Virus record (IMG/VR): IMGVR_UViG_3300032820_002177
Span: 1-42,345 of that record
Length of the DNA: 42,345 nt
Source of the DNA: a virus
Strand: one strand, 5' to 3'
Both the position numbers and the translations under genes were made by a program. The notes below the pieces were generated by a model. That model saw only the letters and a program-made list of their open reading frames with translations, ran no database searches and was not told where the DNA came from. This document shows positions 10,924-42,345 of the stretch, piece by piece. Position 1 is the first letter of the stretch. The number at the start of each line of letters is the position of its first letter.

Positions 10924-11601
10924 ATGCTTACAACTGCGGAAATAATAAAAAAACGATTAAAAGAAGCAAACATTAGATATCATTGTAATGATAACATTTC
11001 TGAATTTATTGAAGAAGGTGAATTAGAAATTTTACAATTAGAAGTGGAAGATGCATTTAGTAATGTTTTGAATTCTTTAGTTATTGATACAAATAATGAT
11101 CATAATACTAAAGAAACAGCAAAACGTGTAGCAAAAATGTTTATTAAAGAAATCTTTAAAGGAAGATATGAACCTTGTCCAAAAGTTACAAGTTTTCCTA
11201 ATATGGGTTACAAATCACTTTATACTAGCGGACCTATTTCTATTCGTAGCACTTGCGCTCATCACTTTCAAAATATTGTTGGAAGTTGCTGGGTAGGTAT
11301 TATTCCAGAAGAAGAAGTTATTGGTCTTAGTAAATTTAATAGACTAGCACATCATATTGCAGAACGACCGCAAATACAAGAGGAAATGACTACACAAATT
11401 AGTAATGCGCTTATAGAGTACGCTAAAACAGAACATGTTGCTGTTGTTGTAAAAGCAGAACATCATTGTATGACACAACGAGGTGTTAAAGAACACGAAA
11501 GTGATATGACTACTGCAATTATGCGAGGAGCATTTGAAACTGATTCTGCATTAAAACAAGAATTTTATAGTGTTTGTTTAAGTATGAAAGGTCATAATTA
11601 A
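10924..11601 (+). CDS. folE: GTP cyclohydrolase I
   Basis: A 225-residue enzyme converting GTP to dihydroneopterin triphosphate, the first step of both folate and 7-deazaguanine (preQ0) synthesis. Zinc ligands are visible: C111 and the adjacent HH (STCAHHF, 109-115) and C182 (EHHCMTQRGV, 179-188). The core GLSKFNRLAHHIAERPQIQE (134-153) is the family signature. It has its own promoter and a leader hairpin. QueE follows after 2 bp, so the pair forms a dedicated unit for deazaguanine synthesis, not folate. Confidence 0.96.
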   Translation: MLTTAEIIKKRLKEANIRYHCNDNISEFIEEGELEILQLEVEDAFSNVLNSLVIDTNNDHNTKETAKRVAKMFIKEIFKGRYEPCPKVTSFPNMGYKSLYTSGPISIRSTCAHHFQNIVGSCWVGIIPEEEVIGLSKFNRLAHHIAERPQIQEEMTTQISNALIEYAKTEHVAVVVKAEHHCMTQRGVKEHESDMTTAIMRGAFETDSALKQEFYSVCLSMKGHN

Positions 11602-11603
11602 AT

Positions 11604-12476
11604 ATGAAATTAAGGTATTCAGAAGCATTTTATTCCGTCCAAGGCGAAGGAAAATTTGTAGGAGTACCTAGTGTATTTTTGCGTACTTTTGGTTGCAATT
11701 TTCGTTGTATGAACTTTAGCTTACCTCGAGGTACAAAAAAAGATAAACATAATCCCGAAGTAAAAAAATTATTAGATAATGGAGTACATTTAACTACAAA
11801 GAACTTTAATGATTTACCTATTATCCATACAGGATGTGATACATATGCAAGCATCTATCCCGAATTTAAAAAATTTATGATGGATAAAACAATAGACGAG
11901 GTTGTTGAACATCTTTTATCACTTACACCTGAAGGTAAATGGACAATGCAAAATGGGCAAGACATTCATCTTATCTTTACAGGAGGTGAACCTTTGTTAG
12001 GATGGCAAAGGCTTTATATAGAACTATTAGATCATCCTAAAATGAAAGACTTAAAAAATGTTACATTTGAAACAAATACTACCCAAACTCTTAGAAAGGA
12101 TTTCAAAGAATTTTTATCAACTCAGAACAGATTTAAAATTACTTGGAGTTGTTCCCCAAAACTTAGTATTAGCGGAGAATCTTGGGAAGATGCAATTAAC
12201 CCTAACTTGGCAGTTGATTATGCTAGTGTTAATGGTAGTGAACTTTATCTTAAGTTTGTTGTCGCTGACAAAGTGGATGTGGACGAAGTTGGAAAAGCTG
12301 TTAAAGAATACAAAAACGCTAACTTGGACTGTCCAGTCTATCTTATGCCGCTTGGGGGACGTTCTGAAGAATATAACTTTACCTATCCCGAAGTTGCGAA
12401 ACTCGCAATGGAAAAAGGATGGCGATTCACACCACGATTACACATCAGTCTCTTCGGAAATGCATGGGGAACTTAA
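11604..12476 (+). CDS. queE: 7-carboxy-7-deazaguanine synthase (QueE), radical SAM
   Basis: A 290-residue radical SAM enzyme that turns 6-carboxy-tetrahydropterin into 7-carboxy-7-deazaguanine. The N-terminus YSEAFYSVQGEGKFVGVPSV (5-24) is the QueE substrate-binding start, followed by RTFGCNFRC (27-35) and FTGGEPLL. The [4Fe-4S] cysteines are C31, C35 and C78 (GCDT). The third Cys, normally two residues after the second, is displaced by a 42-residue insertion. The GCDT context that ends the usual motif is intact, so it likely still closes the cluster site. It follows FolE closely and is presumably active. Confidence 0.93.
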   Translation: MKLRYSEAFYSVQGEGKFVGVPSVFLRTFGCNFRCMNFSLPRGTKKDKHNPEVKKLLDNGVHLTTKNFNDLPIIHTGCDTYASIYPEFKKFMMDKTIDEVVEHLLSLTPEGKWTMQNGQDIHLIFTGGEPLLGWQRLYIELLDHPKMKDLKNVTFETNTTQTLRKDFKEFLSTQNRFKITWSCSPKLSISGESWEDAINPNLAVDYASVNGSELYLKFVVADKVDVDEVGKAVKEYKNANLDCPVYLMPLGGRSEEYNFTYPEVAKLAMEKGWRFTPRLHISLFGNAWGT

Positions 12477-22110: not shown

Positions 22111-23052
22111 ATGGAGTATTTTGAATTAAATCCTGAAGATAATACATTTTCAAATATAGTAATAGACTTAACTCATCGATGTAATATGGAGTGTGCAAAC
22201 TGTTACATTCCTAATCGTGACATTCCGGATCTTAATAAAAACAAGCTATATAATTTTTTAGAAAAACTTCCTAATCGAACATATATTCGTTTAATAGGTG
22301 CTGAACCTACTATGCGAGAAGATATTTTTGAAATAATTTCAACTGTTAAAAAAATAGGACATAGACCTAGCCTTACTACTAATGGATTAAAACTCGGGCA
22401 ACTTTCTTATGTTGAAAAATTAAAAGAAGCCGGCTTACGCTTATTATTACATAGCATGAATGGTGCCGATGACGATGAAATATATAAAATTCTAGATAAT
22501 GGAAAATGGGCAACTATAAAAGTTCGAGCATTAGAAAATATTTTTAAATGCAAACTTCCAGTTAATACTGGAACAATTATAGCCAAGGGTACAAACGAAC
22601 AAACAATTGGAAGACAAGTTAAAACATTTATCAATTCCGCAATAAAAACTGGAGTTAATTTTAACACAACAAAACCTTATAATCGAATTACACCTGTACT
22701 AAGAATTAAAAGTGTAGGATTAATAGGAAGAAATATGGGAGGAAATTGTGCATATGAAATTTTTGAATTAGCACAATTGGCGTCTGAACAATTAGATATT
22801 TCTTATAATTTAATTACTAATAGTAAAGCTACTTCGGGTGTAGTAAAAGCAGGTGCATACGGTGAAGCAGAAACCAGTCTATTATTTCCTTATGAAACGG
22901 AAGCAGGGAAAATCTTTATAAGATTAATTGATTGGCGCATTAATGACGAAGGAGTTATCGACCATGACAATCCTAACAGAGGTCGTTTAACTGAAGACTG
23001 GACTGTTGCTCCTTTCTTTGAACATTTAAAGAAGAATGAATTTGGATATTAA
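22111..23052 (+). CDS. Radical SAM enzyme, substrate unknown
   Basis: A 313-residue radical SAM protein with the CX3CX2C cluster motif CNMECANC (C24, C28, C31) and a GAEPT (63-67) in place of the usual GGEP SAM-binding motif. TTNGLKL follows. No C-terminal SPASM cysteine cluster is seen. It is the first gene of an operon with a protein of uncertain fold and three oxygenase-like proteins, which looks like a small biosynthetic or tailoring pathway. Overlaps the next gene by 17 bp. Confidence 0.88.
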   Translation: MEYFELNPEDNTFSNIVIDLTHRCNMECANCYIPNRDIPDLNKNKLYNFLEKLPNRTYIRLIGAEPTMREDIFEIISTVKKIGHRPSLTTNGLKLGQLSYVEKLKEAGLRLLLHSMNGADDDEIYKILDNGKWATIKVRALENIFKCKLPVNTGTIIAKGTNEQTIGRQVKTFINSAIKTGVNFNTTKPYNRITPVLRIKSVGLIGRNMGGNCAYEIFELAQLASEQLDISYNLITNSKATSGVVKAGAYGEAETSLLFPYETEAGKIFIRLIDWRINDEGVIDHDNPNRGRLTEDWTVAPFFEHLKKNEFGY

Positions 23053-23674
23053 GGTAACAACACATAAAATTAATCGAGAAATTCAATCTGAAATTTTAAC
23101 ATTTCTTCAAGATCAAACAGAATTTGGTCGATTAGAAAAAAATTATACAAAAGAAAAATTAGATTTAGATATATGTGATGCTATTTCTATTATACGTGAT
23201 AAAAACGAAATACTTTCTTTTAGTACATTATTAAATCGAAATCTTTTTGGTAATGCTATTCGATGTGTAAATCGATTATATAAATCACCCGTATATCGAC
23301 ATCGTAATTTAGATCATTACAATAGAATTAAACTTGTTACATTCGAAATGATCCAGCAACAAATGTCATTTGCAAAAGAAAATAATTATGATATTATCTT
23401 TATGAGTCGAGAATTAAAAGATATTAATGTTAAAAATGAAAAATCTTTTAATTCAACTGCTATGAATAGATGGAAAGAATATCTACCTGATAAAAATAAC
23501 TGGATTTATAGTCCAGATATGCATTTAGTTATTCCTCCAAAAACTACTAAAACAAACTGGCAATCAATTCTTTATTATAAATTAAAAGATAATGTCGGAT
23601 TACAACTAGAAAAAATCTCATTAAATAAATATAATGAGTTGTTTATTAAAGGGGATATTAATGAAAATTTCTAA
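23036..23674 (+). CDS. Unrecognised protein, possibly GNAT-like
   Basis: A 212-residue basic protein. The part about residues 95-130 (IKLVTFEMIQQQMSFAKENN, then YDIIFMSREL) and AIRCVNRLYKSPVYRHRN (about 75-92) resemble the late strands and helix of GNAT-type acyltransferases, but the acetyl-CoA loop is not clear. If correct it would acylate a product of the radical SAM enzyme. Confidence in the fold is low; the gene itself is secure from its coupled position. Confidence 0.45.
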   Translation: MNLDIKVTTHKINREIQSEILTFLQDQTEFGRLEKNYTKEKLDLDICDAISIIRDKNEILSFSTLLNRNLFGNAIRCVNRLYKSPVYRHRNLDHYNRIKLVTFEMIQQQMSFAKENNYDIIFMSRELKDINVKNEKSFNSTAMNRWKEYLPDKNNWIYSPDMHLVIPPKTTKTNWQSILYYKLKDNVGLQLEKISLNKYNELFIKGDINENF

Positions 23675-24527
23675 TATAAAATTTGGAATTCAAGTTGAAG
23701 ATATTGACTATCACAGTATAGACGATGCTGTTACTGTCAGAAATTTTATTGGTACTAAAAGAATTGTAGTAGTCAAAAATCCAACACCTGTTCCTGCTAA
23801 AGATCTTTTAACTTTTTACCAAAATATTGGAGATGTAGTTGCTCAAGAAAAGGAAGTAGTAGGATCTGGAGTAGACGGATTACATGAATTTGTAAGAGTT
23901 AAACGCAATGGTTTATTTACTGGTGCTGAAGATGGAGAATTAGAATGGCATTGCGCAGGAATGAATAGAAACGGTGCAGAAGATATAGTTGCAATATATA
24001 TGAATAAACCTGGAGTAGACGGTGGAGACACTTATTTTAGTGATACTCAAACTGCATATGAAGATTTAGACGAAGAAACAAAAGAAAAAATTGATGGACT
24101 AAAATCAAAAATAGTAAACTATCCTGAGAAAATGCTAGTAGGAGATACATTTTATAAAAATGTTTTTGCAAACGAACAAACTTTTAAAGCATTTAAAGAT
24201 ATAGATGGCATTGCAGCTCATACAAAACAAACATCGCGAAAGAACCTTGTTACTACTCACCCATTAAACAATAAAAAAGGTCTTCATTACCCCTGGTCGG
24301 TTATTAGAGGTTTTGCTGGTATAGATAAAAGAGAAAGTCATGATCTATATTATAAACTTAAAAATCATACATTAAATGACAAATATGTATACAAACATGT
24401 ATGGGATCAATATGATATTTGTTTAAGTGATCAACATCATAGTTTACATAGGAGAGATGCTTATGACGGTGACCGTGAATTATGGAGATCTGGAATCTGG
24501 TACAGATCTGAAAACGTTACTGTATGA
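23661..24527 (+). CDS. TauD/TfdA-like Fe(II)/2-oxoglutarate enzyme with HxA in place of HxD
   Basis: 288 residues from ATG 23661 (RBS AAAGGGG). The TauD layout is clear: LEWHCAGMNRNG (H97, C98, A99) where the family has WHxD, then GGDTYFSD, and LSDQHHSLHRRDAYDG with distal His H263 and the following RELWRSG Arg for 2-oxoglutarate. The Asp metal ligand is replaced by Ala99. In Fe/2OG halogenases such as SyrB2 the same Asp-to-Ala/Gly change opens a halide site. In other cases it marks loss of activity. The next gene is a second TauD-like protein with an intact HxD. Confidence 0.8.
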   Translation: MKISNIKFGIQVEDIDYHSIDDAVTVRNFIGTKRIVVVKNPTPVPAKDLLTFYQNIGDVVAQEKEVVGSGVDGLHEFVRVKRNGLFTGAEDGELEWHCAGMNRNGAEDIVAIYMNKPGVDGGDTYFSDTQTAYEDLDEETKEKIDGLKSKIVNYPEKMLVGDTFYKNVFANEQTFKAFKDIDGIAAHTKQTSRKNLVTTHPLNNKKGLHYPWSVIRGFAGIDKRESHDLYYKLKNHTLNDKYVYKHVWDQYDICLSDQHHSLHRRDAYDGDRELWRSGIWYRSENVTV

Positions 24528-25173
24528 ACATGGATTCGTTCATATAAAAAATGACCAACCATTAACTATAAACCAATTTGCTGAATTTGCTAAAACTCTT
24601 GGCAAACCATTAACAACAGTAAAACATGTACTAGACGACGATCGCATAGTACAAGAAGTTAGTAGTAACGAATTATTCAAAAATAATGAAGTTGATTGGC
24701 ATAATGATTGGAGTTATGGACGAGGAAATTATTTTGGTGTAACTTTATATAATAAATCTAATGGTAATTTAGCTCCTACACATTTTATTGATATGAAGAT
24801 TGCATTAGAAGCATATGATAACATAGATTTATTAAGAAGGGTAACAGGATATTATTATCCTCCAAAAGATTTACATTATTGTTTTACTACAAAACAACTA
24901 GAAATACTAAAAATGCAAAATATACATAGACCTTTTATATTTGAGCATCATGTAACTAAGGATAAAGTTCTTTATTTTAGTCCAGGAACATTATTGAAGG
25001 CGGATGGTCCAGACATTGATATTGATAAACTAGTAGAACACTGTTGTCAATTCTCTTGGCAACACGAATGGAAAGATAACGACATAATAATTTATGATAA
25101 TATTAGAGTAATGCATAAACGAGATGCATTTACCGGCGAACGTGTCTTATGGCGAACACAATTTATAATATAG
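24463..25173 (+). CDS. TauD/TfdA-like Fe(II)/2-oxoglutarate dioxygenase
   Basis: 236 residues from ATG 24463, chosen because AGGAGAG (24450-24456) is at ideal spacing. It overlaps the previous gene by 65 bp. The facial triad is complete: H80 and D82 (VDWHNDWSYG) and distal H218 (IRVMHKRDAFTGERVLWRTQ), with the 2OG-binding Arg following. Likely hydroxylates or desaturates a small molecule. It follows a TauD-like protein with a defective or altered triad, so one may act on the product of the other. Confidence 0.85.
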   Translation: MTVTVNYGDLESGTDLKTLLYEHGFVHIKNDQPLTINQFAEFAKTLGKPLTTVKHVLDDDRIVQEVSSNELFKNNEVDWHNDWSYGRGNYFGVTLYNKSNGNLAPTHFIDMKIALEAYDNIDLLRRVTGYYYPPKDLHYCFTTKQLEILKMQNIHRPFIFEHHVTKDKVLYFSPGTLLKADGPDIDIDKLVEHCCQFSWQHEWKDNDIIIYDNIRVMHKRDAFTGERVLWRTQFII

Positions 25174-25185
25174 GCTTAGTTAAAA

Positions 25186-25767
25186 ATGGAAATAGATTAT
25201 TTAGATCCAAATACAAATATTGATGATTTTGTAATTCCCTTAAATATTAATTATTCTCAGGAAATTTTTCAAAATATATTTTACGAGTATTATAATAAAG
25301 AAGTTAAAAGTAATTATACAAGCTATGATGCCTGCTCTGAACTAAAAGAATATTTTACAGATTTCTTTAAAAATCAGTGGCCTTTATCAAAACATTTTAT
25401 GCTTGGTTGGTACTCTCCAAAAAGCAGACCTAATAAAAACTCTGTACCTATCCATATTGACTACGATGTAGCTTCTATAGTGATTCCTATTTTAGGTTGT
25501 ACAAAAGAATGTTTAACAAATATTTTTTTACCTGTTAATGAATTAAATTTAAATAACAACAATAGAGCAATACTTCCACAAGGAGAATTTAAACATATTG
25601 CAAGTTTTGCATTTACTAATCAAATATGTTTATTAAATACTGGCATGTGTCATAATATTTGGAAAACATCTACAACCGATACTATACGTTATCTATGGAG
25701 ATGCGAGTCTAATTTATCTTGGAACGATGCAAAAAGAATTATTTTAGAAGCAAATGATTCGACCTAA
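25186..25767 (+). CDS. Oxygenase-like protein (HxD...H triad)
   Basis: A 193-residue protein with VPIHIDYDVASIVIPILG (87-104), where H90-x-D92 suits a metal site. The strand CLLNTGMCHNIWKTS carries H156, and TIRYLWRCE a candidate Arg. This is the order expected for a small double-stranded beta-helix 2OG-Fe(II) enzyme. The family is not named with certainty. Last gene of the operon; its 3' end overlaps the convergent minus-strand gene by 29 bp. Confidence 0.55.
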   Translation: MEIDYLDPNTNIDDFVIPLNINYSQEIFQNIFYEYYNKEVKSNYTSYDACSELKEYFTDFFKNQWPLSKHFMLGWYSPKSRPNKNSVPIHIDYDVASIVIPILGCTKECLTNIFLPVNELNLNNNNRAILPQGEFKHIASFAFTNQICLLNTGMCHNIWKTSTTDTIRYLWRCESNLSWNDAKRIILEANDST

Positions 25768-27268
25768 TTCCATCGCATACTTTTTCTAATAATTTAGAAA
25801 AAGCAACAATATCTCCATCTTGAAAAACTTTAGTATAAAATTCTTTTGAGGACATTATAATATTAAGTTCGTTTGCTGTACCATTAGGAAATAATGCATT
25901 ATCAAAAGTTTTTATAATTAAATCTGTACGTAATCCATTATTATTTTTCATGTCATCAAATACTGCACTTAATACAAATTTTAAATCTCTATTACATTTT
26001 TGACTATGACCTACTGATTCAATTTCGTTACTATTTTTTTCTAATACTAGGTTTACTAATTCTTCTCCCAATGCATCTAAAACAGGAGGTGAACTTTTTA
26101 ATTGACTAATTTTTTTATTAATACTAGTAATTCCATCCCAATATCTAGTTGCTACTGCAATAGTTTCAAAATTACCACCATTTTGTAAATCAGTTACAAT
26201 TGCATCAATATTATAACCTGTGTCTCGACTACATTTCTGAAATTGAATTTCATCATGAACACTAGGATAAGTTGTCTTAAACCAAGTCATTGCTTCTTCT
26301 ACAATAGATTTTTTATGTGTTAAAATTAAATTACTAGCATTTGAATATTTAGAATCTTGCGATAGAAAAGTAGGAACAGCACTAAGACCTTTTACAGTAA
26401 TATTATTAACAGTATTTTTTAACTCAGTTACTCTTTCTGCTGAATCAACTTCACCATTAGTAATTAATAATTTATTAATTATTTCTTCTACTTTATTATT
26501 AACAGCAACAGCATAAGTTTCTTCTTTAGGCCCTAATTGCGAAGTTAACTCTGGCCATTCAACAACTCTTTCTACACTAGGTTTAGGTATTCTGAAAGCC
26601 GGACGGTCGTACGTTCCTATTCCTAACATAAATCCTGTATGTCTTGAATCTCCTAATAACGGTATAGAAACCCTATCTTGTACGTAACCAAAACATTGAC
26701 AAAATGCTGCATCTAATTCGTAACTATTTGCAAGCACTGATATTACATAAGCATACATAGCAGACGCTGCTAAATAATTCATTTGATAACCTGCACTTCG
26801 TTCTAGCCAAATATCGTCAGTTGACAGGGTATTATTTTTAATTCTTTCGCCATTAGATTTAGACTGAAACTCTGAATATTTAAATACTAAAAGATAAGGT
26901 GCTAAAACTTGAGGATTAAAACTAAAATACTTGTTATTTCCTTCTGTATGAAATGGTAAATCAGATGTTAATAACCCCCTAGTAATTTCATCTGCTTCTG
27001 CATATTTTATTTTATTTAACTGAAAACTAGTATCTATTAAATGATGAAGTGTGTGGGGAAGAAGGTCTCTCTTTTTTGCATGAAATTCTGGACCATATAC
27101 TTCTACTTTAAAATCATAATTAGAATTTTTTACTGGTGTTAAATCTATTGCTTTCTTTAAAATAGCTTCAATATCTTCTTTTTTAGGGGCACTATCTTTA
27201 AAAAATTTATGATTTTCGCGACGTTCCATTGCTTGGAACATATCAATTTTAGGGGCAAATTTTAGCAT
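25739..27268 (-). CDS. Nitroreductase-like domain fused to T4-cyanophage-type structural repeats
   Basis: A 509-residue protein. Residues about 10-60 (FQAMERRENHKFFKDSAPKK, then a PVKNSNYDFKV segment) and about 158-225 (GYQMNYLAASAMYAYVISVL; HTGFMLGIGTYDR) match the FMN nitroreductase fold. From about 250 on it is helical, with two copies of a KC.RD motif: QKCSRDTGYNIDAIVTDL (344-361, then GGN and RYWDG) and QKCNRDLKFVLSAVFDDM (423-440). This recalls the KCRRDxGYIVDAxxxDL...GGN repeats of T4-like cyanophage structural proteins. A TATAAATA late promoter and strong RBS precede it, so a virion-associated flavoprotein is possible. Confidence 0.7.
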   Translation of the reverse strand: MLKFAPKIDMFQAMERRENHKFFKDSAPKKEDIEAILKKAIDLTPVKNSNYDFKVEVYGPEFHAKKRDLLPHTLHHLIDTSFQLNKIKYAEADEITRGLLTSDLPFHTEGNNKYFSFNPQVLAPYLLVFKYSEFQSKSNGERIKNNTLSTDDIWLERSAGYQMNYLAASAMYAYVISVLANSYELDAAFCQCFGYVQDRVSIPLLGDSRHTGFMLGIGTYDRPAFRIPKPSVERVVEWPELTSQLGPKEETYAVAVNNKVEEIINKLLITNGEVDSAERVTELKNTVNNITVKGLSAVPTFLSQDSKYSNASNLILTHKKSIVEEAMTWFKTTYPSVHDEIQFQKCSRDTGYNIDAIVTDLQNGGNFETIAVATRYWDGITSINKKISQLKSSPPVLDALGEELVNLVLEKNSNEIESVGHSQKCNRDLKFVLSAVFDDMKNNNGLRTDLIIKTFDNALFPNGTANELNIIMSSKEFYTKVFQDGDIVAFSKLLEKVCDGIRSNHLLLK

Positions 27269-27289
27269 CTGGTATCTCCTATATGCGTA

Positions 27290-27297
27290 TATTTATA
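27290..27297 (-). promoter_or_regulatory. T4-type late promoter (minus strand)
   Basis: TATAAATA read on the minus strand, about 22 bp before the ATG at 27268, with AGGAGAT as RBS. Perfect match to the T4 late consensus. Confidence 0.8.
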
Positions 27298-27997
27298 TAA
27301 TACCTATTAACATAAAACGGTTATAGGCTTTTAATTCAAAAACGCCACTATATAATATTGTGTTCATAGGACATTGTTCTTTAAATTCTTCTAAATCTTT
27401 AACACAATTATTATGTTCCGGTAAACCAAAATAATTATTACTTTGTAATATAACTAATTTATCTTTTGGTAATTTACGATACCATCTCTCAAATTCTTTA
27501 ATATGTTCACAGCTAGTATTGATAATAGTATCAGGTGCATCTATAAGCTCAACTTCTGATCCATCAGAACGTTTAGTATGATATAAAGCTTCATAATAAT
27601 TAAGTTTTAAAATATCTTTTGTTATTGCTTTAAACTTCCATCCATCGATAACCTTTGACTTATTAAGACTATCTGCAATAGGTGCACAGTTCTCATCTAT
27701 ATCAAAACTTCTTATTATATTAATATTAAATTTACCTTCAAATAACATATTTGCCAATAGTCCATACCAGCCTGCACAAATAAAAACTTTACCTAAAGTA
27801 GGACTTATTTTTGATTCACATACTTTTTCTAATTCTTCAACTAACCATTTTTTACTTTTAAGTTGTCCCCAGCTTAATACATCAGATAAGTCTGCGTCGA
27901 AGTGATCAACAGCATTCCTTAAATTTTTAAATATAGGATCACCGGTCAATGCAAACATTCGTCCAAAAACATCTTTGTCATCTTGCCATTCAATCAT
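27293..27997 (-). CDS. SAM-dependent methyltransferase-like protein
   Basis: 234 residues from ATG 27997, supported by AGGAG 7 nt upstream; it overlaps the preceding gene's stop by 8 bp. The centre reads as a Rossmann methyltransferase: KVFICAGWYGLLANMLF (motif I-like but without the Gly-x-Gly), IRSFDIDENCAPIAD (motif II acidic end), DTIINTSCEHIKEFERWYRK (motif IV-like) and LVILQSNNYFG. Methyl acceptor unknown. Last gene of the long minus-strand run. Confidence 0.6.
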   Translation of the reverse strand: MIEWQDDKDVFGRMFALTGDPIFKNLRNAVDHFDADLSDVLSWGQLKSKKWLVEELEKVCESKISPTLGKVFICAGWYGLLANMLFEGKFNINIIRSFDIDENCAPIADSLNKSKVIDGWKFKAITKDILKLNYYEALYHTKRSDGSEVELIDAPDTIINTSCEHIKEFERWYRKLPKDKLVILQSNNYFGLPEHNNCVKDLEEFKEQCPMNTILYSGVFELKAYNRFMLIGII

Positions 27998-29069
27998 TAA
28001 ACTGCTCCTGTAACCAATCAAAGTCATTAATTTTTTTAAGCAATTCTATATTATCAGCATTTTCTAATCCATACTTTCTTCCAGCTATTGCACCCTTAAT
28101 TGCCCATTCTCCATATTTTTCTTGTTGATTAAACTCAGTACACCATATTTCTAAACGTTTATTAGTTTCGTCATTTTTTTGACCCGGAATAATTTTACTT
28201 GCTAATTTTACACATTCTCTAAATGCACTTTTCCAAGTATTAAAAGGATCAGTATTAAATGCTGTTATATTAGATATTTCTTGTATAGGCTTAAATTTTT
28301 TACTAATAGTAGTTGTCATGTCGGTAGTTGTTACATCCATATCTAATGTTAATTTACGAGGAAGAAGTTTAACTCCTCCATGACCATACACTAAACTATT
28401 AATAGGATTTTGACTACGCCAAACATGTACTATATCTACCTCATGCCTACTTAACTGATGGTTAAATTCAAATTCGTCCATTATTAAAGCATCAGCATCG
28501 ACTACATAAAACATTTCTGTACTAACTATCTTTGCTGCTTCTATATGTGCTTGGTGAATTCCTTTAACTCCGTTTATTCTTTGTGCATATGGAACTTTTT
28601 CTAATAATTTAAAATAATTTTCATCAGCATTTAATTCATTATAACTAATGAATACAACATCATACTGCTTATCTTGACTTGCAATAATTTCAATTTCTTT
28701 TTTATTTACAAAAAACTTATATTCAATTTCTCTATCGCTTACTTCTAAATTTTTTGGAATTAACGAAACTCCACTTACATACGAAGTTGTTGGAGCTTGA
28801 AAAGTGCCTTCTGAAGTACGTTCTACTTCAGAAACTATTTTTAAATTTTTAAAAACATGTATTAAATTTTGATCCCATTCTTCTGGCACAAATGAAAAAT
28901 CAAAACTATCTTTTACTTGAACTATATCTCCCCATATAGTCCAAAACATATTAGTGAATATTTTATTTTGTGCCTCTCTAAAGGTCATAGCATGCTTTAA
29001 TGTAACAAATTTTTTCTTTAAAACTTGCCATTGAAGGTCTTTTTTCCCTATATAAACTATATCATACAT
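27990..29069 (-). CDS. Glycosyltransferase-like protein (GT-A, DAD motif)
   Basis: A 359-residue protein. After an N-terminal region of unknown fold, residues about 135-200 read YDVVFISYNELNADENY (136-152), VPYAQRINGVKG (159-170) and FYVVDADALIMDEFEF (DAD at 191-193), a nucleotide-sugar/metal motif. The same module occurs in the gene at 36022-36963, so the two are paralogues. It likely transfers a sugar, but donor and acceptor are unknown. It starts immediately at the preceding gene's stop. Confidence 0.65.
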   Translation of the reverse strand: MYDIVYIGKKDLQWQVLKKKFVTLKHAMTFREAQNKIFTNMFWTIWGDIVQVKDSFDFSFVPEEWDQNLIHVFKNLKIVSEVERTSEGTFQAPTTSYVSGVSLIPKNLEVSDREIEYKFFVNKKEIEIIASQDKQYDVVFISYNELNADENYFKLLEKVPYAQRINGVKGIHQAHIEAAKIVSTEMFYVVDADALIMDEFEFNHQLSRHEVDIVHVWRSQNPINSLVYGHGGVKLLPRKLTLDMDVTTTDMTTTISKKFKPIQEISNITAFNTDPFNTWKSAFRECVKLASKIIPGQKNDETNKRLEIWCTEFNQQEKYGEWAIKGAIAGRKYGLENADNIELLKKINDFDWLQEQFND

Positions 29070-30365: not shown

Positions 30366-31318
30366 TAGTGCTTACGATAAGGTTGTCGCCAATCACGAGG
30401 ATCATTTGGATCATAGTAGTTTGCAATATAATCGGCATCATCTTTACTAGGCAAAATAAGTTCTTCTGGAACTGAATAAACTTTTGTTTTAGGTAATAAA
30501 TCTAATTCAGTCATTTCTTTATCAAGAACTTCTGACCAAGCAATATGACCACATTCCTGAAAATGGTGCCATCGCCCATCTTTTTTAGGATTGTGTCCTT
30601 TATTAATTAAATGCGCATAATAAATTTCTTCAGGATCAAAAGGATGCCGATAATAAATATCTTTTGCTAAAATTTTACACCCTTCTAAATCAAAAGATTT
30701 ATCTTCTTGATTAAACTCATCAGGGAAAGGATGCTTAAGAACACCTTTTATTTTATGAAATGGTTTAACACATTCTACTGCATTAAACATATAATATGAT
30801 ATATTTTTATCTCGCAAAAAAGAACGTAAAAGTTGATATTGAAAAAGATGATTATACACTTGAACATCATAAGGTTGAAGAGCTATTAAATCTCTCCATA
30901 ATTTCCAAAATTTTACAATTTTTTTATCTTGAAGTTTTGTCCAGTTTGGCATTAAATCAATATGCGCCGAAAGCAATTTTAAATTACCTTCATAAGGAAG
31001 TGCTAATCGGGGATAACCTGACCAGCCAATTAATGAAATTATCTCAGAAGGATCATATTGTGTTAATAATTGATTTACTTTCCTTACTGTATTTCTCATT
31101 ATTGTTATATTATCTAATCCTGCATGACATACATTAACGTGACGTAAATTATTTTTTCTAGAAAGGTGTCCTGCAAACGAACGATATTGTTCTTCTCTAC
31201 GTATTTCTTTACGAAAACGATGACTTTTTGGATAACCTTGTTCTCCTAAAATTTCAAATCCTGCAGAATGACTACAACCTGTTACTAATAATACTTTAAG
31301 TTTAGATGTATCTAACAT
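30365..31318 (-). CDS. SGNH-hydrolase-like protein
   Basis: 317 residues from ATG 31318 (RBS GGAGG; stop of the upstream gene overlaps by one base). LLVTGCSHSAGFE near the N-terminus matches the GDSxS-type block I of SGNH esterases, NVCHAGLDNITIMRNT matches block II/III, and HHFQECGHIAWSEVL near 255-270 matches the C-terminal block with the catalytic His. This family of phage proteins may be a sugar O-acetyl esterase or transferase. The Cys in place of the block I Asp is unusual. Confidence 0.62.
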   Translation of the reverse strand: MLDTSKLKVLLVTGCSHSAGFEILGEQGYPKSHRFRKEIRREEQYRSFAGHLSRKNNLRHVNVCHAGLDNITIMRNTVRKVNQLLTQYDPSEIISLIGWSGYPRLALPYEGNLKLLSAHIDLMPNWTKLQDKKIVKFWKLWRDLIALQPYDVQVYNHLFQYQLLRSFLRDKNISYYMFNAVECVKPFHKIKGVLKHPFPDEFNQEDKSFDLEGCKILAKDIYYRHPFDPEEIYYAHLINKGHNPKKDGRWHHFQECGHIAWSEVLDKEMTELDLLPKTKVYSVPEELILPSKDDADYIANYYDPNDPRDWRQPYRKH

Positions 31319-33402
31319 CAAAATTCCTCCTTGCTTACCATTAAATCACCTCCACACAAACAATTTAAAGAAGAACACATTATTGGTCTGCGTAAAGAAT
31401 TCCAATCAATTCTTTGCCAATGATCTAATGTACCTATAAACCCTCCTTCATGACAATTACCTCTTTTAATGCTTCCATCACGATCTATAAATAACGATTC
31501 TTTACCAATATGACAATTATAATTAAAAAAGTTTGTTTCTCCATTTCTAATAGGATCTTCTGATAATTCAAATACTTTTTGATCTTCATTCTTATATTTA
31601 ATAAAAATATCCTTAGCAGGGTGTTTTTCTCCACTATGGGTACCTCTGTGACGTCTTATATGTTTAAAATTATTAATAAATTCTAATTGATCATCTGTAT
31701 ACTTTATATCACAAAGTTTAAAACCTATATTACCATACTGTTCATCAATAATAACTGCATCGATATTAGCTTTTGTTTCTTCTTTAATACGTTCTAAAAA
31801 ATCCATTGTTTGATCCCAGTATAACGGGTCTAACATTATTCTAGCTGTTGTGGGTGCTAAACCAAAAGATATATTTAACTTTCTAATATATTCATCTTCA
31901 GTCTTATTCGGAAACACCATTGCTGGATGAAAACTAGCACATACTTGTGTAACATATTTAAAAGTTCTTTCTATAAATTGCTCTGACCTTGTAAGATTCG
32001 TTGATAAATTTATATGATGAGAGTTGTTATGTACTTCTTTAACTAGTTGAGAGAAAAAAGGACTTAATGTTGGTTCTCCTCCACTTAATGAAAAAATTAT
32101 TTTACGGTTGTCATTTTCTATAGAATAAAAATTAAATAAATGTTTTAAAAATGGTAAAATATGATGCCAGTTATATTTGTGATTTTTTCCATTTTGAAGA
32201 ATAGGTGGACAATAACGACAACTATATGTACATACATCATTTATTATCCAAGTAATTATACTAGTTTTAGGATTAAAAATTTTTTCTATCTTTTTACCTA
32301 CTACTGGTTTTGGTTTTTTCCAAACAGGTTTACGATGTATCGGCGTAGAAAATGGTGGTCTTTTATGGTGAGCGTCTCTTGGAACTACTGCCATTGAATA
32401 AATGGTATTAAATTGTTTAAAATTATCATTTATAATACCTATACTTGGCAAATAAAACTCTTCACATTGTTCCCAAATCAGTTCCCCAATCTTAATATAC
32501 CCTTCTCGATTTTCAATAAAATTACCAAATTTAAATCCTAATTTTTCATTAACTTGTAAATCATGCCATTTAGTAGAATACCAATATATATCCTTAGGAG
32601 TGTCATTATTAGGAGATAATCTAACATGCACTTCATTAGACCAAGTTGTTTGTGGAGCAATTGCATTTCGATCTATTGCATCTTGATCACCATCTATAAC
32701 AATATGATGTAAATTTTTTCCTAAGGTGTTATAACCCAAACAAAAATCTCCAAATTTTAAAAATGGACTCATACTATAAAAATCTTCCGATTCTAAAATA
32801 AAATCTGTTCTTGGATTAAAACTAATAGTCATATTACCACGAGTATTATATCCTTCTTCTACCGGGGTTACTTCATGTGTATGTATTAATGAATTTAAAG
32901 TTTGAAAAGCACTATTAAGTTCTTCATTAAAAGTTCTTCCTGGCCATATATTTGCAAGGGGAGAATTTTCAGGTATTCTTAAATACGCATCTCCCCACCA
33001 GTCTTCTTCTAATTTTTCTTCTAAACGTTCTCCATACCTCTCATAACATTCATGAAGCACATTGAGGAAATTATTATCTAACCGTGTATTACCTCTTGAA
33101 TCAATAAAAGTTTTAATTTTAGGAATTTGTTCGTCATAATATTCGTTTATTTTTTTAATAATAGTTTCTAATTTTTTTAAATTTTTATTCCTGTCGGGAG
33201 AAGATGTTTTAAATGCCCGATCTTTATAATCATGAGCACCGCTAGTTAATTCTATAAAATGCTCTAACCATTTATGTGCTATAGGAATATCATATAATTG
33301 AAAGAACAAATCTAAGTAATCCCAAGTAGCAGGATCCGTTAATGTAATTCTTATTACAGGATCTACTACTACATCATTAAGTTTATCGTATTCAATTTGC
33401 AT
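31318..33402 (-). CDS. Two-part radical SAM protein with C-terminal Cys cluster
   Basis: A 694-residue protein. Residues 1-380 are a domain I do not recognise (Trp/Asp-rich, ESEDFYSMSPFLKFGDFCLG at about 204-223). Residues from about 380 form a radical SAM core: CTYSCRYC (C391, C395, C398) and LSGGEPT (439-445). The C-terminus has several Cys (YNCHIGKE, RGNCHEGG, IMCSSLNCLCGGD), consistent with a SPASM-type auxiliary iron-sulfur site. SPASM enzymes often modify peptides. The N-terminal domain may bind the protein substrate. Overlaps both neighbours. Confidence 0.83.
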   Translation of the reverse strand: MQIEYDKLNDVVVDPVIRITLTDPATWDYLDLFFQLYDIPIAHKWLEHFIELTSGAHDYKDRAFKTSSPDRNKNLKKLETIIKKINEYYDEQIPKIKTFIDSRGNTRLDNNFLNVLHECYERYGERLEEKLEEDWWGDAYLRIPENSPLANIWPGRTFNEELNSAFQTLNSLIHTHEVTPVEEGYNTRGNMTISFNPRTDFILESEDFYSMSPFLKFGDFCLGYNTLGKNLHHIVIDGDQDAIDRNAIAPQTTWSNEVHVRLSPNNDTPKDIYWYSTKWHDLQVNEKLGFKFGNFIENREGYIKIGELIWEQCEEFYLPSIGIINDNFKQFNTIYSMAVVPRDAHHKRPPFSTPIHRKPVWKKPKPVVGKKIEKIFNPKTSIITWIINDVCTYSCRYCPPILQNGKNHKYNWHHILPFLKHLFNFYSIENDNRKIIFSLSGGEPTLSPFFSQLVKEVHNNSHHINLSTNLTRSEQFIERTFKYVTQVCASFHPAMVFPNKTEDEYIRKLNISFGLAPTTARIMLDPLYWDQTMDFLERIKEETKANIDAVIIDEQYGNIGFKLCDIKYTDDQLEFINNFKHIRRHRGTHSGEKHPAKDIFIKYKNEDQKVFELSEDPIRNGETNFFNYNCHIGKESLFIDRDGSIKRGNCHEGGFIGTLDHWQRIDWNSLRRPIMCSSLNCLCGGDLMVSKEEF

Positions 33403-34648
33403 TTTCTAAAACCTTATAAAATTCCGGAAATGTTTTTTTAAAACTTGTATTCCGTATTTTGTCTAATTTATCTCGATAATCAATAAATTGAGGATATAAA
33501 TCTGATAAATCTTCACTATCCATAAAATCTAATTGCGGAAGTATTTTTTCTCGCCACTGTTTATTATATTTTAACTCTTCAAAACTTTCCCATTTTTTCC
33601 TTATTTCAGATTTAATTGATTTAGGAAAAACTTTAATAGATAGGTATCTCGGCCAATGTACTGTTCCGGCATGAAATACTCCACTATGATGTAAATGGCC
33701 TACTCTTTTAAATTTACTCTTAAGCATGTTTTCTGCAAACTCAGGTATATAATACACGTTCATTGCATGAATTGTTGCTAAAACTTTCACATCAATATTG
33801 TCAGGTGTTTTATCTAACTTTTTAAGATTTCCAGAAATTAATTCCCAATTAGCCGGGTATCGTACATATTCTAAATGTTCTCCCCAAGCGTCTATACTAG
33901 CCATTACTTCTACAAACTTAAATTCCTTCCATAAATTTACTATTTCCTCAGAAATAATAGTTCCATTAGTATGATAACGCAATTCTATATTTTTACTATA
34001 ACCAAACTTTACTAAATTCTTTATTAACTGTAAATGTTCTTTTATAAGCAGAGGTTCGCCGCCAGCAAAAATAAGATGCCTTATAGTAGAAAACATTGGT
34101 TCAAAATCTTTCCAAAGTTTTTCTTTTTTATACCATTCAAATTGATCGGTATCTATATTTGATTTATGCTCCCAGTCCCATTTAGCATCTGTCTCTAAAA
34201 TATCTTTAAGTTTTTTAGCATTACTTAACCACATACTACTATCTTGAGGACGACACATAACACATTGTAAGTTACAAGTATTACCTAATCTTAAATCTAG
34301 AGTTATAAAATTTTCAGTTAGTGTTCCATCTTTCTTTGTAGATGAAATTAATTCTGCAATTCTATCCTCTCCTAATTTATTCTCCCAAAGAACATTTTCA
34401 TTTATTCTATGACTGCGGATACCTGCCGCTTCTTCTTTATAGCAATGGTCACATGCTGATACCTTTTCACCTTTTAACATTTTTACACGAGCATCTTTAA
34501 AATGCTCACTATTCCATATAGTATCAACACTATCCTTATTAAAATTTAACTTATGAGAATTCTGTGCTACACAACAAAGTAAAGCACTTCCGTCGGTCCA
34601 AGTCGCAATATGGGTCCAAGGTAAGATACAAAATGTTTCTGATTTATT
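33392..34648 (-). CDS. Radical SAM protein with N-terminal Cys region (twitch-type), paralogue 1
   Basis: 418 residues from ATG 34648, which overlaps the upstream stop by 5 bp; no strong RBS, so translation is probably coupled. Cysteines C8, C26-C27, C67 and C70 (FCILPW, LLCCVAQ, CDHCYKEE) precede the radical SAM core CNLQCVMC (C126, C130, C133) and FAGGEPLL (196-203). The N-terminal set resembles a SPASM/twitch auxiliary cluster placed before the core. It is clearly paralogous to the next gene upstream. Substrate unknown. Confidence 0.83.
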   Translation of the reverse strand, partial: NKSETFCILPWTHIATWTDGSALLCCVAQNSHKLNFNKDSVDTIWNSEHFKDARVKMLKGEKVSACDHCYKEEAAGIRSHRINENVLWENKLGEDRIAELISSTKKDGTLTENFITLDLRLGNTCNLQCVMCRPQDSSMWLSNAKKLKDILETDAKWDWEHKSNIDTDQFEWYKKEKLWKDFEPMFSTIRHLIFAGGEPLLIKEHLQLIKNLVKFGYSKNIELRYHTNGTIISEEIVNLWKEFKFVEVMASIDAWGEHLEYVRYPANWELISGNLKKLDKTPDNIDVKVLATIHAMNVYYIPEFAENMLKSKFKRVGHLHHSGVFHAGTVHWPRYLSIKVFPKSIKSEIRKKWESFEELKYNKQWREKILPQLDFMDSEDLSDLYPQFIDYRDKLDKIRNTSFKKTFPEFYKVLENAN

Positions 34649-36032
34649 CATTTTTAAAATCATCCCAAACACTTGGATCCACTTGTAGTTTTTCATAATA
34701 AAGATCTAACTCCGATGCTAAATCGGGTATCAAGTCTTTAAAACTTTGTGAACGCTTTTTATCTAAAATGTCTGTCATTGTTAAAAATTGTTTATATAAC
34801 TCGTCATGCTTTACATGTAACTCTTTTCTAAATAAAGAAATTATTCCATCAACACTTTCTTTTACTAAGTTATTACTAGAATAACGATCACTACTATCTC
34901 TATATACTTCTAAATTTTTTGCGCCTATTTCTCGAATACTCTGAGGAATTATAGTTACATCTAAAAATGTTGGATGATTATTAATTAAAAAATTTACATT
35001 AATATTCTTTTTATAATCCTTGGATATACGATCGGCATAATACAAAAGATTATGACAATCTAAAATGTTATAAACTTGTACAACAGGTGTTATTCCTAAA
35101 TCTACATTAGATAATTCTGCTAACTTTCTAAAATTCTTTTCAACATGGGTCCATTTAGCAGGATATCTAATATAATCATTAACTTTTTCATATCCATCTA
35201 AACTACAATTAATTTTAAGGCTCTTAAATTGGCTAACTAATTTTAAAAATTTATCAGTAACATTAGTACAATTAATATTAAAAAATAATTCTATATCTTG
35301 ATTATATCCTGCAGAAATACATTCTTCCATAAATCTATAATTATTTTCTATTAATGTCGGCTCTCCTCCTGTCATATAAACTTTCTTAAGATTAGGAATC
35401 ATAGATATAATTTCATTCCATAAAAAATTTCGATCAAATACAGTTTGAGCCTCTTTTAAATGAAGAGGATTTGCCCCAAACTGGTCTCTCCATACCTTAG
35501 AATATTCATTATATACAGGACTATCAGCTTCTACACCCCCTTCAAAAAGTTGGAAATGCTCTTTTGCTAACTGACTACTATTCCAAGGATTACACATACG
35601 ACATTTTAAATTACATAAATTTCCTAATCTTAAATCTAAATAAACAGGCGGCAATGAGATTTTATAATTATTATCTATAGCTTCTTGAATATAATCATTA
35701 AATACTTCTCCTAATCTATGCTCCCATTCTGCTGTCATCATTGAACGAAAACTTATTGCACCCATTTCTTCTTGCTTATAACAATTAGCACATGCTTCTA
35801 ATTTTGTACCATTAAGCATTGCTTTTCGAGTTTCAATCATTGTATAACTATTCCAAGACTCTAAAAGACTTGTATCTTCAATACTTAATTTTTCTCCAAG
35901 CGTTCCGTCAATTGTAGGTTCTTCTCTTAAAATTGCTTTAGGACCAAATGCTATACAACAGTATCTTGTAAAAGTATCTGTATTAAGCATAAGACCGATA
36001 AAGGGCATTGCACAAAACGATTTATTTTTCAT
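34644..36032 (-). CDS. Radical SAM protein with N-terminal Cys region (twitch-type), paralogue 2
   Basis: 462 residues. Same layout as its neighbour: C7, C25-C26, C81 and C84 (SFCAMPF, RYCCIAF, CANCYKQEE), then the core CNLKCRMC (C140, C144, C147) and YMTGGEPTL. Shared phrases include LDLRLGN.CNL.C and IRYPA.W. The tandem pair probably arose by duplication and may act in sequence or as a heterodimer. Overlaps the preceding gene by 11 bp. Confidence 0.83.
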   Translation of the reverse strand: MKNKSFCAMPFIGLMLNTDTFTRYCCIAFGPKAILREEPTIDGTLGEKLSIEDTSLLESWNSYTMIETRKAMLNGTKLEACANCYKQEEMGAISFRSMMTAEWEHRLGEVFNDYIQEAIDNNYKISLPPVYLDLRLGNLCNLKCRMCNPWNSSQLAKEHFQLFEGGVEADSPVYNEYSKVWRDQFGANPLHLKEAQTVFDRNFLWNEIISMIPNLKKVYMTGGEPTLIENNYRFMEECISAGYNQDIELFFNINCTNVTDKFLKLVSQFKSLKINCSLDGYEKVNDYIRYPAKWTHVEKNFRKLAELSNVDLGITPVVQVYNILDCHNLLYYADRISKDYKKNINVNFLINNHPTFLDVTIIPQSIREIGAKNLEVYRDSSDRYSSNNLVKESVDGIISLFRKELHVKHDELYKQFLTMTDILDKKRSQSFKDLIPDLASELDLYYEKLQVDPSVWDDFKNE

Positions 36033-39584: not shown

Positions 39585-39611
39585 TATATACTTAAGACAG
39601 AGAAATGTCAA
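39583..39611 (-). promoter_or_regulatory. Host sigma-70-type promoter of the minus-strand operon
   Basis: On the minus strand TTGACA (39611-39606) and TATACT (39588-39583) with a 17-bp spacer. It starts at the 3' end of the fibre gene and points to the 115-residue gene. No other promoter is seen until 27290. Confidence 0.82.
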
Positions 39612-40651
39612 CCTATATTTTGAAGATTTACATATGTAGGCGTAGCAACTGTAACTCCATCTACTACTGATGCTCGTACTTGAGTCATTGTAAGACCCAA
39701 ATCTCCTGTAACTCTGTCATCTACATTACTACCGTCTGTATCAGCATCATTCCATTCAAATCTAAAAACAACAGAATTAGTTGAGAGTAATTTAGCTTTT
39801 ATTGTAAAATTATTTTCTGCGTAATTTGGAGCTGATCCTGATTTTGAAAAAATGTCTTGATAAGATGTAGTTAACTCATGAAACCCTATAGCTGATGCAA
39901 CTGTATGCGGCCCTGTAGCAGTAGTAGTTGTACTATGCACTTTAAAAGAAATAATTCCAGAATTTGTTATAATTGCATCCCAATCTACATCTTTTTGATT
40001 GGTGGATTCATTTGTTAATGCAGAAGACATATTTATAACACCTCCTGTATTAAAAAAGTGACGTCGATGATCTTGGGTAGTTGCTGCAATATCGATTCCA
40101 TCGTCAGTTTTACATATATATCCGCCGGCAAAAACTAATTGAAATTCTGCACTTAATCCTGCAGCAGGCCAATCAGAAGTATATGACGCACCTGTATCAG
40201 CCGATTGTACTTTTGTTTCTAGAACTGTTTGTGTAGCATGTACTGTTAAATGATCTACTTCAATTGCAGGAATAAGCGGTGGAATATCATTTACACCTTT
40301 TGTAGCATCTGGATTAACAACTGTAAATGTATCTGGTGTTCCTGGTGTACGCTGAACAGTGTCTCCTGATCCTGTATTTGACTCATCTGCTCCTATAATA
40401 TTTCCGGATACTATCTGATTAATTCCAATGGATGTATTAAATTGATGCCCATATACCATATTAAGATCTGTAAATAATCCACCCCATTGACCTGCGGTTA
40501 TATCATCTACGCCGGCCGGTGCTACCATTCCAGTATTAGCCATAGCTTGACCATAACCTTTATCACCTGATCCTATGCCTAGAATAAGATTTATACGAGT
40601 AACAGCGTCATTATGTTCAGTAATTTCAACATTATCACCTGGTGAAACCAT
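39608..40651 (-). CDS. Fibre/structural protein, paralogue A
   Basis: 347 residues. The N-terminus has INLILGIGSGDKGYGQAMAN, and the C-terminal domain contains HRRHFFNTGGVINMS, a motif seen in T4-like marine phage fibre-type proteins, followed by FHELTTSYQDIFSKSGSAPN. The middle insert is Thr/Pro/Asp-rich and absent from paralogue B. A late promoter (AATAAATA) and RBS AAGGAGA precede it. Probably a virion tail or fibre protein. Confidence 0.75.
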   Translation of the reverse strand: MVSPGDNVEITEHNDAVTRINLILGIGSGDKGYGQAMANTGMVAPAGVDDITAGQWGGLFTDLNMVYGHQFNTSIGINQIVSGNIIGADESNTGSGDTVQRTPGTPDTFTVVNPDATKGVNDIPPLIPAIEVDHLTVHATQTVLETKVQSADTGASYTSDWPAAGLSAEFQLVFAGGYICKTDDGIDIAATTQDHRRHFFNTGGVINMSSALTNESTNQKDVDWDAIITNSGIISFKVHSTTTTATGPHTVASAIGFHELTTSYQDIFSKSGSAPNYAENNFTIKAKLLSTNSVVFRFEWNDADTDGSNVDDRVTGDLGLTMTQVRASVVDGVTVATPTYVNLQNIG

Positions 40652-40680
40652 TATATCTCCTTGCGAATAAAGTACTCATA

Positions 40681-40688
40681 TATTTATT
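40681..40688 (-). promoter_or_regulatory. T4-type late promoter (minus strand)
   Basis: AATAAATA on the minus strand, 30 bp before the ATG at 40651, in the 67-bp gap between the two paralogous fibre genes. Confidence 0.65.
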
Positions 40689-40718
40689 CAAACAATGAAA
40701 TATATTAATTTTATTGAA

Positions 40719-41621
40719 TTATAATTCTACTGTATTAGAATATGTTGGACTAGGAACTGAAACATAAATTCCGGACGCACGGCGTTGGGTAATAGTACTA
40801 GTAAGAGTTCCTGTAACATTTTCGTCAGGAGTACCACCTGAATCATCTTGGAATCTTATATCAAATTCTATAATTCTACTATCAACTTCTTTTGCTGTAA
40901 TTCGAAACAAATTTTCATCATAATTATAAGCAGATCCTGATTTTTGAAATACTGTTTGGTGTGTACTTGTTAATTCAAAATTTCCTATAGCACTAGGTGT
41001 TCCATTACCAGAACTTGTAGTTGCATGTATTGCAAAAGATACTATCCCTATACCTGACAATAATCCTGCCCAATCTGCATCTTTAGACCCTGCACCATTA
41101 GATAATTGTCCTTGAAATCTAACCTCTCCACCTGTATTAAAAAAATGTCTACGAGCATTATCAGTAAAAAATGTTACTTGAAAAGTATGTATAACAGTAC
41201 CATTCCAGTCTTGTGTTCTAGTACTAGAAGTTGCTGCTTCAACAGATGCTTGAGTATCATCGCATAAAAGTTTATCAGATTCTACAGAATCTACTATACT
41301 AATAAAATCATTATAGCCTTTTAAACTATTTGTTCCACCGCCAGATAATACCACATCATCTGCACCAATTCTATCTGTAATTTCAACAGTTGCTATATTA
41401 GTTAAACTACCTGATTGATGTGCTCTACATTTATCTATATCAGTTTTAAGATTTACCATTTTTTCAGCAGTTATTACTGAATTAGCTGAAACAACATTAC
41501 TTGATAAAACTTGACCATACCCTGTATCTGTAGATCCTACTCCTAAAACAGTTTCAACACGGCTTTGTAATCCATTATATGTTGCAGCCGTGATAACATC
41601 TTGAACACTTACAGTAGGCAT
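40719..41621 (-). CDS. Fibre/structural protein, paralogue B
   Basis: 300 residues. VETVLGVGSTDTGYGQVLSS at the N-terminus and RRHFFNTGGEVRFQGQLSN with NFELTSTHQTVFQKSGSAYN in the C-terminal half align with paralogue A throughout, apart from a shorter centre. Tandem duplication is clear. A late promoter overlaps the upstream gene's stop. Virion structural function inferred. Confidence 0.75.
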   Translation of the reverse strand: MPTVSVQDVITAATYNGLQSRVETVLGVGSTDTGYGQVLSSNVVSANSVITAEKMVNLKTDIDKCRAHQSGSLTNIATVEITDRIGADDVVLSGGGTNSLKGYNDFISIVDSVESDKLLCDDTQASVEAATSSTRTQDWNGTVIHTFQVTFFTDNARRHFFNTGGEVRFQGQLSNGAGSKDADWAGLLSGIGIVSFAIHATTSSGNGTPSAIGNFELTSTHQTVFQKSGSAYNYDENLFRITAKEVDSRIIEFDIRFQDDSGGTPDENVTGTLTSTITQRRASGIYVSVPSPTYSNTVEL

Positions 41622-41646
41622 GGTGCAATCCTATTATAATTTTGAA

Positions 41647-41654
41647 TATTTATA
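41647..41654 (-). promoter_or_regulatory. T4-type late promoter overlapping a stop codon (minus strand)
   Basis: TATAAATA on the minus strand. The TAA within it (41652-41650) is also the stop codon of the gene upstream. It lies 26 bp before the ATG at 41621. Confidence 0.72.
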
Positions 41655-42345
41655 CTTTGAGTATGCATTCAACTAGTTTCTCTCTTTCTTCATTATTTGT
41701 TTCTAAAGAAATACCAACCATTCCACTAGTTACGTTAGTTGAACAAACTCCATCATTATAAACATACACTGATTGACCTTTATCAACAGGTCCTGTAACA
41801 CGAACTGGTAAGCGTCCTGTTAATCCTATTGCTTGACCTTCACTGTCTCCGTTCATAAGATAAGCAGGTGATTCAGAAATTACACCTATACACATATCTT
41901 CAGAAGATGCTGCTGTAGTTTCCCCTTCACCACCAACTGCCATTGCAGTTCCTGGTGGATAAAGTGTATCAGTAGTATATTTTTCTGCCAAGTCAGCATA
42001 TTGTGCTTGTGTTGCTATACCTACAAAATACGCTGCTTTTAGTGAACCAACTGGTATTGTTTGAGAATTTATTACTTCTTCTACAGACGTTCTTACTGCA
42101 ACAGTTCCTGAACTTGATGTTTCACTTCCTGTTCTATTAGTTCCACTTACAACTAGTGCTGTAGCTTTTTCTGCTAATCCTGTAAAATTGTCTGCATAAA
42201 CATTATTAAATTTATGATCAGTACTACCTAATGTTACAACTTCTGTAGTAATTTCATCACTCTGTAACCCTGGAATTACAGAATTTGAATACATTCTTAA
42301 CGGATTTTTTACAACTCCTAAGCTATTCTTTGCTTTAAATGAAAT
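41650..42345 (-). CDS. Structural/fibre protein (5' end outside the window)
   Basis: At least 231 codons. The frame is open to the right edge, with 17 codons before the first visible ATG at 42294 and no stop, so the true start is probably outside. STDHKFNNVYADNFTGLAEKA is the typical pre-tip motif of T4-like marine fibre proteins. The tail section ADLAEKYTTDTLYPPGTAMA, then GVISESPAYLMN, GLTGRLPVRVTGPVDKGQSV and GMVGISLE, matches the C-terminal domain of cyanophage YadA-like structural proteins. Function: virion fibre or tail protein. Confidence 0.8.
   Translation of the reverse strand: MSFKAKNSLGVVKNPLRMYSNSVIPGLQSDEITTEVVTLGSTDHKFNNVYADNFTGLAEKATALVVSGTNRTGSETSSSGTVAVRTSVEEVINSQTIPVGSLKAAYFVGIATQAQYADLAEKYTTDTLYPPGTAMAVGGEGETTAASSEDMCIGVISESPAYLMNGDSEGQAIGLTGRLPVRVTGPVDKGQSVYVYNDGVCSTNVTSGMVGISLETNNEEREKLVECILKV

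Follow-up and report, generated by a model that had tools for sequence, protein, structure and literature searches.

In pelagimyophages, the host recognition cluster is a variable island that holds tail fibres, glycosyltransferases and radical-SAM cassettes and that adjoins VrlC. VrlC is regarded as standing in for gp7 in the baseplate, and the radical-SAM cassettes come and go (PMC7029224). No nitroreductase is mentioned for this cluster in that paper, nor is one named in the literature found. The genome of Pelagibacter phage Mosig EXVC030M (MT647606; genome note PMC7892664) carries two genes, Mosig_00082 and Mosig_00093, each annotated as 'putative nitroreductase domain-containing protein'. 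That this fold is able to work on peptides is evident from two relatives of the nitroreductases, the peptide-modifying SagB (PMC8939145) and AlbA (PMC11055893). How enzymes modify phage virion proteins has received little study.

The stretch analysed here (the window) is a viral contig of 42,345 nucleotides with 31% G+C. Its DNA polymerase is of the T4-superfamily type, with the jumbo phages Phosso and Atu_ph07 as nearest relatives (45-49%), and the source phage is an ocean-type, T4-like phage. The gene under study was found where the preliminary description had placed it, as an ORF with an ATG start whose product combines an N-terminal nitroreductase domain with C-terminal repeats of the KC.RD type:

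25739..27268, minus strand: whole ORF, 509 aa, comprising both parts
26534..27268, minus strand: nitroreductase-fold domain, aa 1-245, recognised by family profiles, predicted fold and conserved residues
26369..26509, minus strand: partial KC.RD unit, aa 254-300, corresponding to unit positions 80-126; weak, domain E 0.02
26036..26332, minus strand: KC.RD unit 1, aa 313-411, with KCSRDTGYNID at aa 345; domain E 5.8e-13
25904..26008, minus strand: degenerate KC.RD unit 2, aa 421-455, with KCNRD at aa 424; domain E 2.3e-4
27276..27280, minus strand: AGGAG ribosome-binding site, 7 bases 5' of the ATG
27290..27297, minus strand: TATAAATA, an element like a T4-type late promoter, 22-29 bases 5' of the ATG

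Searched on its own, the window protein gives no match to the nitroreductase fold in Pfam, NCBIfam or, by phmmer, the PDB. A PF00881 search of its own genome returned nothing for the first half of the 509-aa ORF, tblastn with this half found no relative among isolated phages, and two close-relative scans of viral contigs gave no match to it. The entry to the family came from the neighbouring gene at 27990-29069, whose relatives in viral contigs led to locus L045. At the same position in the gene order, L045 encodes a 312-aa protein that consists of a KC.RD unit followed by a nitroreductase-like region (PF00881 weak, E 0.0034). A strand motif common to this protein and the window protein, NPQ.LAP[YW]LL, served as the query against the viral collection. 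It occurs in 36 viral stretches, compared to two matches among bacterial and archaeal genomes totalling 257 billion bases; both of the latter lack a family HMM match and were rejected as members. A further profile-guided scan added more members. Judged from sequence searches, the family is phage-restricted and comprises about 30 sequences. All relatives except those of Mosig are metagenomic, with loci collected via a common motif or a common neighbour.

The family places the first half of the window protein in the nitroreductase superfamily, as the preliminary description had proposed. When the window protein is left out of the family HMM, this HMM still detects it (E 4.1e-23), the match covering almost the entire profile, and five of nine scanned members (L104, L134, L122, L106 and L137) reach Pfam's own cut-off for PF00881, the best with E 2.3e-7 over positions 1-167 of 167. 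The window protein itself stays under the Pfam gathering score. This score is a detection threshold and not a defining trait, and membership rests on profile and fold. Searched against the PDB, a family profile of 22 rows, the window protein among them, recovers mainly nitroreductases (best E 4.9e-7). Structure prediction, which had been suggested as a check, yields a model of this half from a 28-row alignment (AlphaFold, pLDDT 78, pTM 0.76); the single-sequence prediction of the window protein reached a pLDDT of only 32. The solved folds closest to the model are the nitroreductases 3of4, 3gbh and 4dn2, with Z up to 16.8, and the peptide-acting AlbA is matched with Z 15.4. Among viral structure models there are only three good fold matches, one of which is called NfnB nitroreductase. 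We conclude that residues 1-245 are a real domain of the nitroreductase fold. We note that the family is thus partly hidden under Pfam thresholds, yet spread across viral contigs.

Superfamily members hold the FMN phosphate with an N-terminal Arg and a C-terminal basic residue, and both are present in the window protein. R17 is the Arg of the RRS/RHS motif (Arg in 22 of 24 rows, Lys in two), in a region that aligns to RHATKHF of 2b67. The basic residue at position 229 (Lys or Arg in 23 of 28 rows) precedes P230. Of the FMN-binding Arg and Ser proposed for checking, the equivalent of the FMN-phosphate Arg is kept; the Ser that follows it is Asn19 here. Of the positions conserved across the 28-row alignment, the window protein retains R17, P45-x-K47, N118-P-Q120, C190, G216/G218 and K229-P230; missing from it are the Gly residues conserved at 169 and 184 and the Ser after P45. 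The near-invariant C190 and the invariant K47 (codons at about 26699 and 27128) lie by the predicted flavin pocket. C190 is presumably located in a loop near the flavin N5, going by the alignment to other nitroreductases and by what is familiar from NfsB. To our knowledge, a Cys and a Lys of this kind are not typical of characterised nitroreductases, and we regard K47 and C190 as candidates for a family-specific chemistry.

The second half was described as carrying two KC.RD...D repeats. In a search of all six frames, the window has KC.RD only at aa 345 and aa 424 of this protein. The first repeat is real; the second is degenerate, its motif reading KCNRDLKFVLS without the second D, and a weak third piece lies ahead of both. 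Residues 254-455 therefore hold one good and two decayed units. An HMM of KC.RD units, constructed from nitroreductase-linked proteins with the window protein left out, matches the whole window protein in three pieces (E 1.8e-22) and P-HM2 gp7 with E 2.5e-14; it gives no match to Mosig VrlC. The second half also matches four PHROG families of phage tail or virion proteins, the best being PHROG 4527 (E 1.5e-14), and tblastn with it returns cyanophage gp7, VrlC, tail-fibre and structural genes. The proposed kinship with virion structural proteins is thus borne out. In the isolates considered, KC.RD units are found only in genes of 9-20 kb, mostly annotated as structural, and in the family loci searched with the KC.RD HMM, units without a nitroreductase occur solely in giant genes.

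Family members combine the enzyme and the KC.RD unit in several ways. Stand-alone enzymes without KC.RD are found, for example, in L105, L114 and L140. The unit is located in front of the enzyme in L045, L090, L093, L104, L128, L154 and the second gene of L142; inside the enzyme, between the first strand and the next helix, in L107, L134, L137 and L155; and behind it in the window protein. In L107 and L153 the family gene is called in two overlapping frames that break at the KC.RD insertion, reflecting a frameshift either of the phage or of the assembly. On a maximum-likelihood tree the KC.RD states require at least five changes, a count that does not distinguish gain from loss. Grouping every KC.RD form into one clade is rejected, with a p-value that is rough given the long branches. 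The window protein, L140 and Mosig_00082 form one group (support 97/97), and the nearest relative of the window copy is L140, at 33% at best. Several phages harbor two divergent family members: L124 (6184-6894 and 8069-8731), L142 (8001-8555 and 14991-16091) and Mosig (Mosig_00082 and Mosig_00093).

The late-type promoter named in the preliminary description is also present. The octamer TATAAATA is rarer in the window than expected by chance (4 observed, 13.7 expected). TAAATA stands at promoter distance before only three of the 38 scanned ORF starts of the window—the gene under study and the starts at 40651 and 41621, both of which are tail-like. Among family genes, 8 of 27 have TAAATA at late-promoter distance, with 0.35 expected from density; against the 8.9% of all scanned starts that have it the binomial P is 0.002, although some of these genes are close relatives and the counts are not fully independent. 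The octamer TATAAATA does not precede every family gene; it is missing, for example, from the operon members L045, L090 and L093. Its position some 20-30 bases before the start would fit a T4-type late gene and is supportive of late expression, without proving the timing.

The genomic surroundings add a further element of the comparison:

27293..28027, minus strand: upstream neighbour, conserved before the family gene in L045/L087, L090, L093, L142 and L143
27990..29069, minus strand: next upstream neighbour, the 'MYDI' protein, 359 aa, in the same conserved order
31318..36032, minus strand: three radical-SAM ORFs of the same cassette (31318-33402; 33392-34696, with SPASM; 34644-36032)
22111..23052, plus strand: radical-SAM ORF on the other side of the gene, PF04055 E 4.8e-16
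39608..42294, minus strand: tail-like genes; 41650-42294 matches Peptidase_G2 and tail-fibre families

The product of the upstream neighbour looks like a SAM methyltransferase, though it has no library match. The 'MYDI' protein likewise has no library match; viral contigs contain more than 160 relatives of it, and the same methyltransferase-like gene often comes after them. The recurring order is the 'MYDI' gene, the methyltransferase-like gene, the family gene and a radical-SAM gene. The window has the first three of these, with the radical-SAM genes more distant. A radical-SAM gene adjoins 23 of 29 family genes, compared to 69 of 238 other genes (29%) in the same loci, an association that may be inflated because the loci were collected via a common motif or neighbouring gene. 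It adjoins 10 of the 11 KC.RD-bearing family genes. For the remaining six of the 29 there is no adjoining radical-SAM gene; in the window the nearest is three genes off or more.

Some further features of these loci are worth recording. Radical-SAM arrays, several with SPASM, occur in the window (31318-36032) and in L072, L118 and L082, with up to about 10 such genes per 20 kb stretch, all within one phage island. Between the methyltransferase-like and the family gene, L045, L090, L093, L142 and L143 share about 70 conserved codons that end in a LPSKVGPGKDVKLVMEN-like sequence, possibly a small protein or a peptide substrate. In the window, a GTP cyclohydrolase I gene adjoins a QueE-like radical-SAM gene (10924-12476), as in 7-deazaguanine DNA modification; two TauD-like dioxygenase genes (23634-24527 and 24427-25173) are neighbours and overlap as called; and the tail-like proteins of 39608-40651 and 40719-41621 share the motif RRHFFNTGG.

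Taken together, we tentatively read the gene product, at slightly less than even confidence, as a late flavin oxidoreductase that belongs to a modification cassette of the host recognition cluster and is docked, through its KC.RD units, to proteins of the tail or baseplate. The gene would be expressed late; its first half would most likely form an FMN-binding homodimer, as is characteristic of this superfamily, and would transfer hydride, in an oxidation or a reduction, acting on a substrate that the radical-SAM/SPASM enzymes of the cassette produce or use. The KC.RD half may dock the enzyme onto gp7/VrlC-type tail or baseplate proteins, or co-assemble with them, and the chemistry would then take place, as the virion matures, on parts of the tail or parts that recognise the host. 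The fusion of enzyme and repeat, together with the radical-SAM genes beside its relatives, suggests that these phages alter the chemistry of their own tails or of their host-recognition parts, and the repeated fusion to a unit of giant baseplate and tail proteins names the tail or baseplate as a likely site of action, with FMN as a testable cofactor. Against the docked enzyme stands the partial decay of the KC.RD units in the window protein. Since many relatives do without KC.RD, docking is also not needed for the basic chemistry.

A different use of the same repeats was envisaged in the preliminary description: the protein would be a minor constituent of the tail or baseplate, anchored there by KC.RD, and would act at the host surface or be delivered on infection. 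The restriction of KC.RD units in isolates to very large, mostly structural genes argues for such a virion flavoenzyme, as do the late-type promoter in common with two tail-like genes and the proximity of family genes to tail genes and VrlC in L140 and Mosig. Yet KC.RD is absent from the nearest relative, L140, and from both proteins of Mosig, so virion attachment via this unit is not the general rule of the family. The genes moreover lie within enzyme cassettes and not in structural operons, and their radical-SAM neighbours agree no less well with a role in maturation or modification; we consider a simple virion enzyme quite unlikely. The cassettes could also belong to a cytosolic enzyme that synthesises unusual sugars or lipids destined for the host envelope, for example in superinfection exclusion. 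Such an enzyme would work with the radical-SAM, aminotransferase, carbamoyltransferase and dioxygenase genes of the cassette, with KC.RD as an oligomerisation or scaffold domain. The two Mosig genes, amid aminotransferase, ArnB-like, carbamoyltransferase, TauD and FMN-reductase genes, agree with this, and glycosyltransferases of the host recognition cluster have been argued to alter host surface glycans (PMC7029224). The repeated joining of a giant-tail-protein unit in three arrangements is left unexplained, however, and we hold this account, including the scaffold role, to be unlikely. Finally, the divergence of the window copy (no closer to its nearest relative than given above), its missing Gly and Ser residues and its partly decayed repeats might indicate that the domain has lost its enzymatic role and now provides a tail accessory protein with a dimerising structural module. 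The otherwise retained invariant or near-invariant residues—R17, K47, NPQ, C190, GxG and K229—make this very unlikely.

Returning to the docked flavin oxidoreductase, a wider generalisation is conceivable but doubtful: marine T4-like phages would possess a maturation system for their own tails, in which radical-SAM/SPASM enzymes modify host-recognition parts together with a flavin oxidoreductase, recruited through the KC.RD unit that it has in common with giant baseplate and tail proteins. The flavoenzyme-KC.RD fusions nevertheless provide a handle on the role of radical-SAM arrays in marine phage host-recognition islands.

Compared with the systems described at the outset, Mosig_00082 and Mosig_00093 belong to the same family as the window protein (HMM E 4.6e-17 and 2.1e-9, respectively). 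They are located between tail-fibre genes and VrlC, amid MoaA-like (radical-SAM), aminotransferase and carbamoyltransferase genes, and unlike the window protein they have no KC.RD units (191 and 293 aa). The family gene clusters resemble the pelagimyophage host recognition cluster (PMC7029224), while the window lineage differs from pelagimyophages in its Phosso- and Atu_ph07-like DNA polymerase. The gp7/VrlC-type cyanophage giants (P-HM2 gp7, S-MbCM7 VrlC, S-PM2 T4-GC 734) carry KC.RD units homologous to those of the window protein, but in proteins of thousands of residues as opposed to 509. With the PF00881 superfamily (NfsB, NfsA, NfrA, BluB, IYD, SagB, AlbA) the window family shares the fold, the order of elements, the N-terminal Arg, the Pro loop and the C-terminal basic-Pro pair; it differs in its own NPQ.LAP[YW] strand motif, the invariant K47 and the near-invariant C190, and the window protein differs additionally in its fusion to KC.RD units.
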